From: Telmatospirillum siberiense
Lineage (GTDB): Bacteria > Pseudomonadota > Alphaproteobacteria > Rhodospirillales > Magnetospirillaceae
Direction of reading: 5' to 3'
Assembly: GCF_002845745.1 (NCBI RefSeq)
Contig: NZ_PIUM01000023.1
Coordinates: 1 to 64,000, forward strand
Length of the DNA stretch: 64,000 bases
In this document: positions 8,625 through 47,086 of the stretch, piece by piece
Layout: each line of letters begins with the position of its first letter
How positions within the stretch are numbered: position 1 is the stretch's first letter
Made by a program: the position numbers and the translations under genes
Notes under the pieces: generated by a model
Seen by the model: the letters and a program-made list of their open reading frames with translations, nothing else
What the model was told of the DNA's origin: nothing
Databases searched by the model: none

Positions 8625-8647
8625 AGGCGACGATCCCTACACCAACT

Positions 8648-8673
8648 CTCGGTGATCGGAGCCGATCACCGAG
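8648..8673. terminator. Perfect inverted repeat after acpS
   Basis: Twelve-base arms CTCGGTGATCGG and CCGATCACCGAG separated by AG, 24 bases after the acpS stop. It could end the pdxJ-acpS transcript although no T-run follows. Confidence 0.5.
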
Positions 8674-8723
8674 CCCTCAACCGCCGGGCGGGGTGCCTCC
8701 GAAACCGTTGCTTGGCCATGCTC

Positions 8724-8802
8724 GGCCTTCGGCCCGCCTGCGGCGTCGTTTGCCCTTCGGGCTGCTAAGGCTTCGCGCCAACGCCCTGTGCGCTTCGCGC
8801 AC
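8724..8802. repeat. Three short TTC-loop hairpins in a row
   Basis: GGCC-TTC-GGCC at 8724-8734, GCCC-TTC-GGGC at 8752-8762 and GTGCGC-TTC-GCGCAC at 8788-8802. No open frame with plausible coding character runs through them. They lie between two larger perfect inverted repeats, making the acpS-to-cupin spacer unusually structured. Confidence 0.5.
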
Positions 8803-8857
8803 ATTCCCGATAATTGCCGGCAAGGCCGGCGGCGGCGCGGGCCCTCAACGGGCCAGG

Positions 8858-8892
8858 CCAAGTCTCGATGAGTCATCCTCATCGAGACTTGG
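8858..8892. repeat. Perfect 15-bp inverted repeat beside the cupin stop codon
   Basis: Arms 8858-8872 and 8878-8892 are exact reverse complements (CCAAGTCTCGATGAG and its partner) with loop TCATC. It lies just downstream of the cupin gene stop on the minus strand, so it probably forms that transcript's 3' hairpin. There is no T-run on either side. Confidence 0.6.
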
Positions 8893-21469: not shown

Positions 21470-21478
21470 ACGGTTTCA

Positions 21479-21550
21479 GTGGCACCGGCGTCCCCGCCGG
21501 TGATGCGGCGAAGCCGGACAGGCAAACACCGGCAGGGACGCCGGTGCCAC
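21479..21550. repeat. 24-bp inverted repeat between hypB and hypC
   Basis: Arms 21479-21502 and 21527-21550 match at 23 of 24 positions, beginning GTGGCACCGGCGTCCC, around a 24-base spacer. It may be an intergenic palindromic repeat element. On RNA it would be a very stable hairpin inside the hyp operon. Confidence 0.7.
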
Positions 21551-21593
21551 CGATTTCTCAATGCGGGAACCGAAAAGAAAAGGAAAGACTTCC

Positions 21594-28149: not shown

Positions 28150-28210
28150 ACATTCGATGGGAATGGGGTCTCCCGAAACCGCCGAAAGGCTGATGACTCC
28201 TACTGCGTAG
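28150..28210 (+). ncRNA. Fluoride riboswitch (crcB RNA)
   Basis: The leader contains GGCTGATGACTCCTAC at 28188-28203, the most conserved block of the fluoride riboswitch. It is preceded by GGGAATGGGGTCTCCC at 28159-28174, which forms the typical ATGG-containing stem-loop, and by AAACCGCC. It lies about 100 bases ahead of crcB, the classic target. Fluoride binding should turn on crcB; whether by transcription or translation is not clear, although no terminator with a T-run is visible. Confidence 0.9.
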
Positions 28211-32288: not shown

Positions 32289-32458
32289 GGGAGTCCGGTT
32301 TTCTGCGGCCGGCCGTGGTGCCGTTCCGTTTTTAACCTGTGGTTGAAGATATGATTATCATGGAGTGGACGCGAGAGGGCAGTCCCCGTTTGAGGACAAA
32401 AGCGTTTCCTGAAAGTGAAGGTATTGGTCCCTCGGCGCAGTCGCCGTTTTATCGCGCT

Positions 32459-32504
32459 AGTGCATTGACACAAAAAGAAGATCCAACAATTTCGTCAATG
32501 CACT
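32459..32504. repeat. Inverted repeat AGTGCATTGAC/GTCAATGCACT
   Basis: Eleven-base perfect arms (32459-32469 and 32494-32504). The arm sequence TAGTGCATTGA recurs in the longer palindrome at 32561-32600. Confidence 0.6.
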
Positions 32505-32522
32505 CCAGTCGGCGCGGCGCTT

Positions 32523-32552
32523 GAGCGATGAAAAAGCGGATCTTTTTCGCTC
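32523..32552 (-). terminator. Hairpin with A/T tracts downstream of the patatin gene
   Basis: GAGCG-ATG-AAAAAG pairs with CTTTTT-CGCTC around CGGAT. Read from the patatin gene it comes about 35 bases after the stop. Plausible terminator. Confidence 0.45.
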
Positions 32553-32560
32553 TTGCAGAG

Positions 32561-32600
32561 TCTAGTGCATTGAATCATCTGAATGATTCAATGCACTAGA
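32561..32600. repeat. 18-bp perfect palindrome covering the end of the patatin gene
   Basis: Arms 32561-32578 and 32583-32600 are exact reverse complements (core CTAGTGCATTGAATCAT) with loop CTGA. The patatin stop codon and its last three codons (Leu-Val-His) lie inside the right arm. Confidence 0.75.
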
Positions 32601-37947: not shown

Positions 37948-38151
37948 ATGGCTTTCGCATCGGCCATCGCTTCGCCCATTGATTTTTTCGTCACGACCAC
38001 TGTCGCGCGAGGCGCGGCATTGGTGAAAAAGCCGCGTCGTCTGGTCCGTCGCTGGACCGTCGATTCCGCGACCGGCCGGCTCGTCTGCGCCTGGGAGTCC
38101 GATCCGGACTCCCGAAGACCCATTCCGCATCTCCGACTCGTCCGGATCTGA
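37948..38151 (+). CDS. Small hypothetical protein
   Basis: A 67-residue product starting MAFASAIASPIDFFVTTTVARG, then a basic middle (KKPRRLVRRWTVDSATGRL) and ending PHLRLVRI. A strong AGGAGG lies five bases ahead of the ATG, the best argument that it is real. I do not recognise the family. A large palindrome begins at its stop codon. It could be a small nucleic-acid or membrane-associated protein; nothing in the sequence decides. Confidence 0.6.
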   Translation: MAFASAIASPIDFFVTTTVARGAALVKKPRRLVRRWTVDSATGRLVCAWESDPDSRRPIPHLRLVRI

Positions 38152-38184
38152 TGGTCATCGGTGCCGGCCGGCACCGATGACCAT
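38151..38184 (+). terminator. 34-bp palindrome directly after the small ORF
   Basis: ATGGTCATCGGTGCCGG and its exact reverse complement run back to back, beginning at the last base of the stop codon. No T-run. Probable terminator hairpin. Confidence 0.6.
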
Positions 38185-38320
38185 CATGGATGGAACGTGG
38201 GTATCCCGGGATTTCCGGGCGGCGTGATCCGCGCCTGCCTCAGGAATAGGGCTATCTCATTAAAAATACAGTGAATTTCAGTATCGCCTGACGGCGGGCG
38301 AAGCCAAAGGGATCGCAAGT

Positions 38321-39973
38321 ATGAGCCATATTGAACTCGAAATCGTGCCGCAGGGGGCCGTCCTCGACGAGGCGCATGTCGGACATATTCGCGGCGCGCT
38401 GGGCACCATCAGACAGGGCGATGCGGCGCCCCGCACGAGCTGGATGGCGCGTTTCAAGACGTTGCTCGCCATCCTCGGCCCTGGACTGATCGTCATGGTG
38501 GGCGACAATGACGCCGGTGCGTTCGGCACCTATACGCAGGCCGGGCAGAATTACGGAACGGCCCTGCTGTGGACCCTGCTGTTGCTGGTTCCCGTTCTCT
38601 ACGTCAATCAGGAAATGGTGCTGCGGTTGGGTGTCGTCGCCCGCGTCGGCCATGCGCGCCTCATCCTCGAACGATTCGGCAAGTTCTGGGGCGCGTTCAG
38701 TGTGATCGATCTGTTCTTGCTGAACGCCCTGACCATTGTCACCGAATTCATCGGAATCAGTCTGGCGCTCGATTATCTGGGCGTTTCCAGGGAGATCGGC
38801 GTCGCCGCCGCGGCCCTGTTGATCATGCTGGCGGCAGGAACGGGGGATTTCCGTCGTTTCGAGCGTTTTTCCCTGATCCTGTGCGCCGGCAGTCTGCTGC
38901 TGGTGCCGGTCTTCCTTTGGGTTCATCCGCCCTTCGCGCAGGTGGCGCGCGACATGGTCGTGCCGCAATTGCCGGAAGGCGCCAGGTTGAGTGACGTGAT
39001 GCTGCTGATCATCGCCATCGTCGGAACCACGGTGGCGCCGTGGCAACTGTTCTTTCAGCAGAGCTATATCATCGACAAGCGCATCACGCCCCGTTTCATG
39101 CGTTACGAGCGGGTCGACCTGTGGCTCGGCATCGTGCTGGTGATCATCGGCGCGGTGGCCATGATGGCTTTTACCGCCGCCACCTTCGGCGGCCATTCCG
39201 AATTCGGTAATTTCTCCGATGCCGGCGCCGTCGCCGCCGGGCTTGAGACTTATGTCGGGCGGACCCCCGGCGTGCTGTTCGCCATAGCTCTGATCGATGC
39301 CAGCATCATCGGTGCCTCGGCGGTGTCTCTTTCCACCGCCTACGCCATCGGCGATGTGCTGTCGCTCAAGCATTCGCTGCACCGCAAACCGTCGGATGCC
39401 AAGGTTTTCTATCTGGTCTATTGCGGTCTCATCGCTCTGGCGGCGGCATTGGTGCTGACCCCCGGGACTCCGCTCGGTCTGCTGACCAACGCGGTGCAGA
39501 CCCTGGCCGGCGTTCTGCTTCCCAGCGCCACGGTATTCCTGCTGTTGCTCTGCAACGACAAGGCGGTCTTGGGGCCATGGGTCAACTCCCGGCTTCTCAA
39601 TTATTTCACCGGCGCCGTCATCGCCGTGCTGGTCATGCTCTCGATGATCCTGACGGCTTCGGTTCTTTGGCCGGACTTGAGCGAGCAGGTCATCTTCCTC
39701 GTCTTAATCGGCGGCGGCTTGACGGCGGCGGTCGTCGCCCTGGCGTTCGTTGTGTGGGGGCATGGCCGTCCTCCGTCGCCGGCGATGGGGAACGGGGGGA
39801 ATGCGGGGGAGGTGAAGGCCACTTGGATGATGCCGCCTCTCAAGACTTTGCCGCCGGCCCGCCTGTCCCCCGCAAGTCGCCTGTGGATGGGACTGTTGCG
39901 CGGCTATCTGGTCATCGCCGGTGGGCTTGTGCTTGTCCGGATCGTGCAGTTGGCGATCGGTACCGCCGGTTAG
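38321..39973 (+). CDS. NRAMP-related divalent cation transporter with altered metal site
   Basis: A 550-residue membrane protein with about eleven to twelve helices, clearly of the NRAMP fold (LGPGLIVMVGDNDAGAFGTYTQAGQNYG as helix 1). The helix-1 DPGN signature reads DAGA here, keeping the aspartate but losing the asparagine. The helix-6 segment that normally reads MPHN reads APWQ (TTVAPWQLFFQQS), losing the metal-coordinating methionine. Such changes occur in NRAMP-related proteins that do not follow the Mn/Fe rule, for example magnesium transporters. The substrate is therefore open. A FetAB-type exporter follows. Confidence 0.85.
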   Translation: MSHIELEIVPQGAVLDEAHVGHIRGALGTIRQGDAAPRTSWMARFKTLLAILGPGLIVMVGDNDAGAFGTYTQAGQNYGTALLWTLLLLVPVLYVNQEMVLRLGVVARVGHARLILERFGKFWGAFSVIDLFLLNALTIVTEFIGISLALDYLGVSREIGVAAAALLIMLAAGTGDFRRFERFSLILCAGSLLLVPVFLWVHPPFAQVARDMVVPQLPEGARLSDVMLLIIAIVGTTVAPWQLFFQQSYIIDKRITPRFMRYERVDLWLGIVLVIIGAVAMMAFTAATFGGHSEFGNFSDAGAVAAGLETYVGRTPGVLFAIALIDASIIGASAVSLSTAYAIGDVLSLKHSLHRKPSDAKVFYLVYCGLIALAAALVLTPGTPLGLLTNAVQTLAGVLLPSATVFLLLLCNDKAVLGPWVNSRLLNYFTGAVIAVLVMLSMILTASVLWPDLSEQVIFLVLIGGGLTAAVVALAFVVWGHGRPPSPAMGNGGNAGEVKATWMMPPLKTLPPARLSPASRLWMGLLRGYLVIAGGLVLVRIVQLAIGTAG

Positions 39974-40045
39974 CCGGGGTGGGGGGCATCCGCGATGCCA
40001 TCAACCGTTTACAAAGCGTGGTGGGCCAACTGATTGAATTGTTAT

Positions 40046-40087
40046 GAAAGTCCGACGGATGGCGGCGGCGCCGTCCGTCGGACTTTC
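40046..40087 (+). terminator. Hairpin after the NRAMP-related gene
   Basis: Fourteen-base perfect arms GAAAGTCCGACGGA and TCCGTCGGACTTTC around a GC-rich loop. Likely terminator although it lacks a long T-run. Confidence 0.6.
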
Positions 40088-40095
40088 ACCACTCG

Positions 40096-40126
40096 TGGCG
40101 CGTTTCATCTTAAATGAAAGGTGCCA
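40096..40126. repeat. Imperfect inverted repeat TGGCGCGTTTCAT/ATGAAAGGTGCCA
   Basis: Imperfect thirteen-base arms around CTTA. It is followed by AAGCCCGAGCGGCGC, which also occurs after hypD. Confidence 0.4.
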
Positions 40127-40183
40127 CCAAGCCCGAGCGGCGCCTGAGCATCGCCGAAGCCGGAGGCGAAGGCTTCACAAAAA

Positions 40184-40226
40184 GCCTAGTCGAACATGTC
40201 ATTTCAAATGACATGTTCGACTAGGC
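40184..40226. repeat. 43-bp perfect palindrome upstream of fetA
   Basis: Arms 40184-40204 and 40206-40226 are exact reverse complements (starting GCCTAGTCGAACATG) with a single central C. It ends 32 bases before fetA. It could be an operator, a cruciform, or the last hairpin of the upstream spacer. Confidence 0.7.
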
Positions 40227-40257
40227 CGCAATGAAGGTTCATGGTTAAATCCCTGCC

Positions 40258-40854
40258 ATGCTTGTCATTTCCCAATTGAGCCGGTCTGGTCTGGCGCCCG
40301 CTTCCTTTTCGTTGGATTACGGCGAATGCGTCGCCGTTCGTGGTCCGTCGGGGGCCGGAAAATCCCTATTGTTGCGTTCTATCGTCGATTTGGATCCCAA
40401 CAGCGGCGAGGTCAGTCTCGACGGTGTGGCGCGGGAGGCGATGGACGGTCCGGCCTGGCGACGGCTGGTCGGCTATCTGCCGGCCGAGCCCGGTTGGTGG
40501 GATGATCGCGTCGGCCGGCATTTTTCAGATTGGGCGACGGCCTTGCCCCTGGTCGAGCGGCTGGGGTTGCCGGCCGATGCCGGGGACTGGCCATTGACCC
40601 GGCCCTCGACCGGCGAGCGCATGCGCCTCGCCCTGGTGCGGGCCCTGACGCAGAGTCCGAAGGTGCTCCTTCTCGACGAACCGACGGCGGCCTTGGACGC
40701 GGCGTCGGTGTCGGTGGTGGAGGCGATGATCGCCGAGCGCGTCCGGGATGGGTTGGCGGTGCTGTGGGTCACCCATGATGCCGCTCAGGGCGAGCGGGTG
40801 GCCAGGCGTTTTCTGCGGGTCGAAGCCGGACAGGTGCGGGAGGAGGCGGCATGA
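40258..40854 (+). CDS. fetA: ABC transporter ATP-binding protein (FetA type)
   Basis: ATPase partner of the permease at 40851. The 198-residue product is short for an ABC ATPase. It has Walker A GPSGAGKS, a signature altered to RPSTGERMRLALVRAL (TGE in place of SGG-Q), Walker B VLLLDEPTAALD, and the switch histidine in VTHD. This small size and partner fit FetA/YbbL, linked in E. coli to iron export and peroxide resistance. It overlaps fetB by ATGA. Confidence 0.85.
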   Translation: MLVISQLSRSGLAPASFSLDYGECVAVRGPSGAGKSLLLRSIVDLDPNSGEVSLDGVAREAMDGPAWRRLVGYLPAEPGWWDDRVGRHFSDWATALPLVERLGLPADAGDWPLTRPSTGERMRLALVRALTQSPKVLLLDEPTAALDAASVSVVEAMIAERVRDGLAVLWVTHDAAQGERVARRFLRVEAGQVREEAA

Positions 40855-45601: not shown

Positions 45602-47086
45602 TTATCGCGCCAGGACCTGGGCGGCTTCCTTGGTTTTGGTCACCGCCTGGCTGACCTGTTGGATGGCCGCGGAAATTTCGTTGATGCTTCCGCTGATGGT
45701 GTCCACCGCCACCGACGTGCCCTGCATGCTCGACGACATGCTGCGGGTCACCGCGCTTTGTTCCTCGACCGCCCCGGCGGTGCCGGTGACATATTCGCGC
45801 ACCGTGGCGATGGAGTGACGGATGTCGGTAAGCACCGAGACCACGTCGACGGAAGCCGCCTGCACCTTTTCGATTTCCTCGGAAATCTGTTCGGTGGCGC
45901 GGGCCGCCTGATTGGCCAGATGCTTGACTTCGTTGGCGACCACGGCAAATCCCTTGCCGGCCTCGCCGGCCCGGGCCGATTCGATGGTGGCGTTCAATGC
46001 CAGCAGATTGATCTGACCGGCGATGGTCTGGATCAACACCACCACGCCGCCCATGGCGGTCGCCGCGTCCTGGAGGCGCGAGGCCGACTGATCGGCCACC
46101 GAGGTCTGCTCGAAAACATGGTCCGTGGCGCCTTTGGACTTCGCCATGCTTTCCGAGATTTCCTTGATGGAGGCGTCAAGTTCCTCGGCGCTCGACGCCA
46201 GCATCTGGACATTGCCCGAAGTTTCGGACGCGGCGCGGACGGCTTCCGACGTCTGGTTGGATGAGCGGCCGAGAGCGCCGTCGATTTCTCCGAAATTGAC
46301 GTCGATCAGCGTTTTCAGGCTGTCCAGCAGGGCGATCTGCCGGGTGATGTCGGTGGCGTATTTCACCACCTTGTACGGCTTGCCGTTGAGATCGAGGATG
46401 GGGTTGTAGGAGGCTTCGATCCACACCTCGCGGCCGCCCTTGCCGATGCGTTTGTATTGCGCGGCCTGATATTGCCCGCTGCGCAGTTTTTCCCAAAATT
46501 GCTTGTATTCGGCGCTGTTGCGATAGGCCGGCTCGACGAACATGGAGTGATGTTTGCCCTGGATTTCCGGTAGAGAATAGCCGAGCGCGTTCAGAAAGTT
46601 CTGGTTGGCCGTGATCACCGTGCCGTCGAGCTTGAATTCGATGACGGCCTGAGCCTTGCCGATGGCCTGGATCTGGCCCAGAAGGTCGGCGTATTTCAAT
46701 TTATCCTCGGTGACGTCCGTGGCGTATTTCACCACTTTGAACGGCTTGCCGTCGGAGCCCATGATCGGATTGTAGGCGCCTTCGATCCACACCTCGCGGC
46801 CGCCCTTGGCGATGCGCTTGAATTGCGCCTTCTGGAATTGGCCACTACGCAACTTTTCCCAGAATTGCTTGTATTCTGGGCTGTCGCGGTAAGCCTGTTC
46901 GACGAACATCGAATGATGCTTGCCGCGGATTTCTTCCTGCCGGTAGCCCATCAGGGTCAGGAAATTGTCATTGGCGCGGATGATGGTGCCATCCATCTGA
47001 AATTCAATGACGGCCTGTGTCTTTTCCAAAGCCGCCAGCGTGCCTTCCATTTCGGAACAGCGGGCACCGGAAATAATTTTGAGCAT
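45602..47086 (-). CDS. Soluble chemoreceptor with tandem PAS domains
   Basis: A 494-residue cytoplasmic methyl-accepting protein. Two PAS domains at about 15-130 and 137-255 are near copies: [24 protein letters not shown] against [24 protein letters not shown], each followed by REVWIE and a YNPI loop. The signalling part has [37 protein letters not shown]. This layout is like Aer2/BdlA-type sensors of redox state or oxygen, possibly through flavin or haem, but no ligand-binding residue can be named. The similarity of the two PAS units suggests recent duplication. Confidence 0.92.

Follow-up and report, generated by a model that had tools for sequence, protein, structure and literature searches.

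The palindrome and its setting

Within the window, by which the whole stretch of 64,000 nucleotides analysed here is meant, a perfect palindrome of 43 bp stands in front of a gene for an ABC ATPase, and the question raised by this locus is whether it is a regulatory site, a transcript end or part of a repeat. The preliminary description of the locus had considered a metal-regulator operator, a cruciform and a repeat element, and had suspected a general habit of building terminators in this style; only the repeat element is borne out by the results below. The palindrome, hereafter H2, occupies positions 40184-40226 and consists of two 21-nt arms (40184-40204 and 40206-40226) that are 100% complementary around a 1-nt centre. 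It was rightly called rare, with about 4e-7 such palindromes (perfect, arms of at least 21, loop of at most 8) expected in 64 kb from base composition. The wider search for perfect inverted repeats that had been proposed was performed with arms of at least 13 and loops of at most 8 on four stretches of the host genome (G000; 6,200,830 bases in 81 contigs), 1,215,728 bases in all. It returned 50 palindromes, against 0 in the control, for which C11 and C22, two of the four stretches, were each simulated twice with a first-order Markov model to give about 1.59 Mb in total.

H2 is preceded by an Nramp gene (38321-39973) and followed by the ABC ATPase gene (40258-40854) and then by a UPF0014 gene. 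The name fetA proposed for the ABC gene is fair, as an ABC_tran protein is followed by a UPF0014 membrane protein behind the Nramp gene; UPF0014 is taken here to be FetB, and the two genes form a FetAB-like pair. H2 does lie before the start codon of fetA, at a distance of 31 bases when counted again and not of 32.

Anatomy of the composite repeat

H2 is not a stand-alone feature. It is the right hairpin of a composite repeat of about 131 bp, which runs from a left hairpin (H1) through a 20-bp core and a small stem to H2. The repeat begins 119 bp behind the Nramp gene and, by the gene calls, ends 30 bp before fetA, in a tandem gap whose two neighbour genes are both on the plus strand. The features of the locus are listed below, together with those of a sister class of repeat discussed further on.

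40045..40088, plus strand: distinct palindromic repeat TGAAAGTCCGACGGATGGC..., just ahead of the composite repeat
40093..40226, plus strand: whole composite repeat, about 131 bp from the TA-equivalent to the TA at 40222-40223
40095..40127, plus strand: H1, left hairpin GTGGCGCGTTTCAT...AATGAAAGGTGCCAC
40130..40149, plus strand: 20-bp core AGCCCGAGCGGCGCCTGAGC, common to other hairpin classes
40153..40173, plus strand: small, imperfectly paired stem GCCGAAGCCGGAGGCGAAGGC lying between the core and H2
40184..40226, plus strand: H2, right end, 43-bp perfect palindrome; conserved part CTAG...CTAG at 40186-40224
40243..40250, plus strand: possible -10 element of fetAB, GGTTAAAT, 16 bases behind H2, also present before fetA of the congener G001
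32457..32599, plus strand: sister class built on the same hairpin-core-hairpin plan, whose ends CTAGTGCATTGAC are of IS630 type and whose H2 is the palindrome 32561-32600

The window copy displays TC at 40093-40094 where other copies have the left TA. The stems of H1 and H2 take in their own end bases, and the RNA fold of the composite repeat is much more stable than those of shuffled sequences (z = -8.2).

Copies in the host genome and in relatives

When the 29-base middle of the palindrome is used as the query (at most 3 mismatches), H2 is found at five places in the host genome, and a half-site search adds one further place (C11:249205); H1 is found at nine places. The repeat is therefore dispersed, with H2 as one part of it. 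The whole unit is kept in the window, C16, C18 and C11:249108 copies, the middle part of the C33 copy is longer and altered, and the right part alone is kept in the C27 copy. Further H1 copies of the host genome have no H2 of the same class. Copies of the same plan thus exist elsewhere in the host genome and also in two congeners. A looser H1 pattern is matched in 3 of 61 genomes, with 9 matches in the host, 12 in G001 and 15 in G002, and the exact H2 pattern in 1 of 41 genomes, the host itself. Identical copies were seen by eye in contigs of G001 and of the Telmatospirillum MAG_CA127, and likewise in contigs of G002 and of the Rhodospirillales bin_346. A search for plasmid records resembling the palindrome locus found none.

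Presence, absence and insertion junctions

The order of the Nramp and fetA genes is kept in the congeners G001 and G004, both without the repeat: the distance between the two genes is 284 bp in the host genome with the repeat, and 133 bp (G001) and 100 bp (G004) without it. No close fetA was found in G002 and G003. At this locus the intergenic sequences of the congeners have diverged too far for a target duplication to be recognised. The sequence GGTTAAAT that precedes fetA in G001 is retained in the window behind H2, and the repeat would therefore lie just upstream of a possible -10 element; a promoter scan gave no sigma-70 consensus site.

Of the 13 complete copies, 11 carry the TA on the left and 12 carry it on the right, as scored by eye. 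Terminal inverted repeats are present in the G001 and G002 copies, where TAGTGG... is found at both ends of the unit; in the host genome the ends are only about 14/20 alike (left end of the C18 copy against right end of the window copy, by eye). One G002 copy, truncated on its right side, has its left junction exactly at the TAG stop of a gene, and the host orthologue of this gene has the stop and no repeat. The remaining piece of the C27 copy begins at the queF stop, and the orthologue at locus L203 lacks it.

Concerted changes of the arms

The arms were compared in an alignment of 16 copies (A2), six from the host genome, five of G001 type and five of G002 type, 13 of them complete; copies without H2 were left out. 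An earlier alignment of 13 rows (A1), whose partial rows L150 and L220 are dropped in A2, is in agreement on the covariation of the arms; all rows of both were picked by eye. Standard pairs are observed in 96.9% of 552 cells, against just 30-42% of cells when the structure is slid. Changes on both sides of a pair are seen in 13 of 37 pairs (11/19 in H2, 2/12 in H1), and the covariation score of the 16 copies was matched by 0 of 500 shuffles, although the events are not independent because related rows are counted several times. When the 15 other rows are set against the window copy, 44 cells of H2 carry another Watson-Crick pair, 12 a wobble and 12 a broken pair.

Proposed origin of the repeat

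The explanation preferred here, with a probability of roughly two in three, is that H2 is the terminal hairpin of a non-autonomous repeat of about 131 bp, which entered the gap between the Nramp gene and fetAB in this lineage and moves, or moved, in trans by means of a transposase of the IS630/Tc1-mariner type. Such a transposase would recognise the inverted ends TAGTGG.../...CCACTA and insert the repeat at TA, often within CTAG or within a stop codon, which would allow insertions at gene ends to be tolerated. The symmetry of the arms would be kept at the DNA level, either through recognition by the transposase or through template switching in which one arm serves as the template for the other. 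If the repeat affects fetAB at all, this would be incidental. A striking perfect palindrome is thereby explained without a regulator.

The transposase type is suggested by the sister class. This repeat begins CTAGTGCATTGACACAAAAAGAAGATCCAAC, and seven contig ends of the host genome begin CTAGTGCATTGACTCAAACAGAAGATACAAC and stop some 110 bases later, the pattern seen where a multi-copy insertion sequence breaks an assembly. These contig ends read into a C-terminus, EHNKNSKPFVWTKPADVILAKLQRLPVVSSV, that is matched by 20 plasmid records, the annotation 'IS630 family transposase' standing under 5 of 12 among the matches listed. An IS630 element of Azospirillum (L303) carries CTAGTGCACTGAC at both ends. 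By these sequence matches, the sister class carries the true ends of an IS630-family insertion sequence of the host genome. Formal membership of the H1/H2 class among the IS630 MITEs is putative, because ends common to a transposase gene were shown for the sister class only. Across the five genomes of the genus the DDE_3 domain has 9 matches, a single one being in the host genome, and none of the 8 DDE_3 loci inspected is part of an insertion sequence with paired TAGTGG ends. The search has little power, since these draft assemblies lack multi-copy insertion sequences; even the class IV IS630 is visible at contig ends only.

The core and its wider family

The 20-bp core has 109 matches in the host genome (at most 3 mismatches), against 0 for the reversed pattern, and the genome thus carries a modular repeat system enriched at gene ends. 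The core is flanked by several hairpin classes without evident likeness, namely TAAGGGCTTGGGGCG..., TAAGGGCCTGTTGATAAATT..., CTAGAGC..., CTAGTGCATTGA... and the TAGTGG class of H1 and H2, and neighbouring cores lie about 90 bp apart at several places. When a strict hairpin score is applied to 102 cores, H1 is found beside 44, H2 beside 58 and both beside 25; the flanking hairpins of the cores that fail are degenerate, truncated or missed.

Placement was determined with a small home-made gene caller, many of the pieces being of 1.6-3 kb and selected for holding a core. With this selection, 58 of the 102 cores lie between convergent genes, 27 between tandem and 4 between divergent genes, 4 within a called gene and 9 at the edge of a piece; counted as distinct loci the numbers are 50, 24, 3, 4 and 9. 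The convergent bias is weaker in the four unselected long stretches, where the gaps of at least 100 bp that hold a core are convergent in 10 of 22 cases, against 64 of 399 for those without (p = 0.0017). For 36 cores an H1 was found together with a left-hand gene that points at it, and in 13 of these the stop codon of the gene coincides with the initial bases of H1.

The core also extends well beyond the host. With at most 2 mismatches it is found in 31 of 61 genomes, the host included, and the reversed control gave 4 matches in all. Among named genomes it occurs in at least 106 stretches, many of the matches listed belonging to Telmatospirillum, Magnetospirillum and Rhodospirillales and a minority to remote taxa. 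In other taxa a strong hairpin ends at most 6 nt upstream of the core in 25 of the 108 matches listed and lies downstream in 3 of the 108; among random 52-mers, 3 of 318 hold a strong hairpin anywhere. As far as sequence can tell, the core behind a strong hairpin, seen also in remote taxa (Aureimonas and Lachnospiraceae among them), could represent a wider, unnamed structural element. At 20 core loci from other taxa, Rfam matched neither the core nor the repeat. The idea that the core marks an OMEGA/HEARO RNA in the remote taxa found no Rfam match at gathering score.

Two groups of these loci were noted separately. At L154, L157, L158, L162, L171, L184 and L193 the core lies in mutually similar surroundings that look non-coding by eye; these are MAGs labelled Pseudomonadales, Gammaproteobacteria and Alphaproteobacteria, and Rfam returned no match at L154, L157, L158 and L171. 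In Lachnospiraceae MAGs (L172, L173, L194, L208 and L214) the core follows a short hairpin, e.g. GTCACGATTC...GAATCGTGAC, and in L173 core and hairpin are found close behind a tRNA gene.

Alternative explanations

A more novel reading, of rather low probability, is that these are modular elements made of a fixed 20-bp core (AGCCCGAGCGGCGNNTGAGC) and interchangeable hairpin ends, in which several transposases, IS630-type and others, would mobilise a shared inner module and symmetry would be renewed by arm copying. Among the titles and abstract beginnings listed, none was found to describe a single core combined with exchangeable hairpin ends. If such a plan is confirmed, it would offer a natural system for testing how new ends are acquired by non-autonomous elements, and whether selection or the copying of one arm onto the other keeps a palindrome perfect.

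Also of low probability is an element of REP/REPIN type mobilised by the single Y1_Tnp (RAYT-type) transposase gene of the host genome (C16:100778-100957, 31.4 bits). REP, REPIN and BIME repeats are described, in the part of PMC3733652 available, as palindromic, placed at gene ends between convergent or tandem genes and able to supply stop codons from their ends; palindromes, placement and stop codons are alike here. The palindrome that flanks the Y1_Tnp gene begins TTAGTGGCAC / TTAGTGGCACCGG / TTAGTGGC and has TAGTGGC in common with H1, and the RAYT therefore stays a candidate mobiliser. This only Y1_Tnp gene is nevertheless flanked by what is otherwise another palindrome family (13 matches in 1.2 Mb, including window positions 21481 and 21527). 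A unit of about 131 bp with two hairpins and a core is likewise unlike a REP, and the constant GTAG/CGTC tag outside the hairpin is absent in the 16 aligned copies, GTAG being present in some only. A member of this family was also seen as the inverted repeat GGCACCGGCNTCCNTGCCGGTG at window 21476-21553, the reversed pattern giving 0 matches.

A selected bidirectional terminator or stabiliser of mRNA ends is improbable. It would agree with the enrichment of cores between convergent genes, with the very stable RNA fold and with a T-run that follows H2 on the minus strand (TTTTTG), where the site was scored terminator-like; the scan gave 3 such sites, each of them on the minus strand, and shuffled sequences gave 0.5. 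The window copy, however, lies between two plus-strand genes, and the scan gave no plus-strand terminator around H2 and no T-run there, so that termination of their transcripts is a weak reading. Moreover, the A-run that gives the minus-strand T-run is not kept in the G001 and G002 copies, and a convergent bias would also result from tolerated insertions, as argued for pneumococcal repeats in the accessible text of PMC3049150.

That H2 serves fetAB as the operator of a Fur/Mur/MntR-type metal regulator, for which a perfect dyad so close to fetA and the adjoining Nramp gene would speak, is very improbable and is not supported, because other copies adjoin unrelated genes (acetate kinase, PRC-barrel, GGDEF-EAL, DNA polymerase III alpha, QueF, a lysine-decarboxylase-like protein and a YchJ-like protein) and the fetAB locus of two congeners is free of the repeat, while complete copies bring H1, core and stem along with H2 and its exact pattern has no match in 40 relatives.

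Comparison with known repeats

By analogy, the insertion-derived repeat preferred here would work like RUP, BOX or REP in its placement and use of stop codons, as far as the consulted parts of PMC3049150, PMC2229807 and PMC3733652 describe them. The RUP is an intergenic repeat of 107 bp with about 100 copies, has ends like those of IS630-Spn1 and inserts at TA (PMC2229807, in part), and is over-represented between convergent genes (PMC3049150, in part). On these descriptions the likeness extends to small size, intergenic position and convergent bias, and probably to IS630-like ends and insertion at TA. Unlike in the RUP, both ends are here palindromes themselves, the core is common to classes with unrelated hairpin ends and, in draft assemblies, no insertion sequence with the TAGTGG ends of the H1/H2 class was found. 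BOX repeats, in the excerpted account of PMC3049150, are modular and over-represented between convergent genes and often encode the stop codon of the preceding gene, and are thus similar in build, bias and stop-codon use. They differ in host group and modules, and the swapping of terminal-hairpin classes seen here is absent from that excerpted account. The Correia/NEMIS elements, compared by their description in the seen portion of PMC2229807, are alike in their small size, terminal inverted repeats and TA ends, and belong to another host group. A description of the composite repeat itself was found in none of the titles and abstract beginnings listed.

Other repeats and features of the window

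Three further palindromes had been reported, at 8858-8892, 32561-32600 and 38151-38184. The first two are placed correctly and the third extends two bases further on each side (38149-38186); their arms are indeed unrelated to one another. To call them terminators of one style misdescribes the group, because they belong in part to other repeat families. The half-site of 8858-8892 has 27 matches in 1.2 Mb (at most 2 mismatches) and the reversed pattern 0, which defines a dispersed family, and 32561-32600 is the right end of the IS630-type repeat. The half-site of 38149-38186 has four other matches, each with 3/19 mismatches, and the reversed pattern 0, so that no clear second copy is seen.

The first bases of the perfect 38-bp palindrome at 38149-38186 are the TGA stop of a short reading frame that precedes the Nramp gene. 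Another composite repeat occupies 8641-8892, with a left hairpin ACCAACTCTCGGTGATCGGAGCCGATCACCGAG at 8641-8673 and the palindrome 8858-8892 at its far end. The separate repeat TGAAAGTCCGACGGATGGC... at 40045-40088, whose right arm is four bases (40089-40092) from the start of the composite repeat, recurs at 46988; it has 9 half-site matches in 1.2 Mb, against 0 for the reversed pattern, and relatives that differ in their arm letters lie at C11:123636 and C22:336305. Rfam gave no match at gathering score at the palindrome and two elsewhere in the window, a fluoride riboswitch at 28150-28209 (54.7 bits) and a piece of group II intron RNA at 73-146 (51.2 bits).
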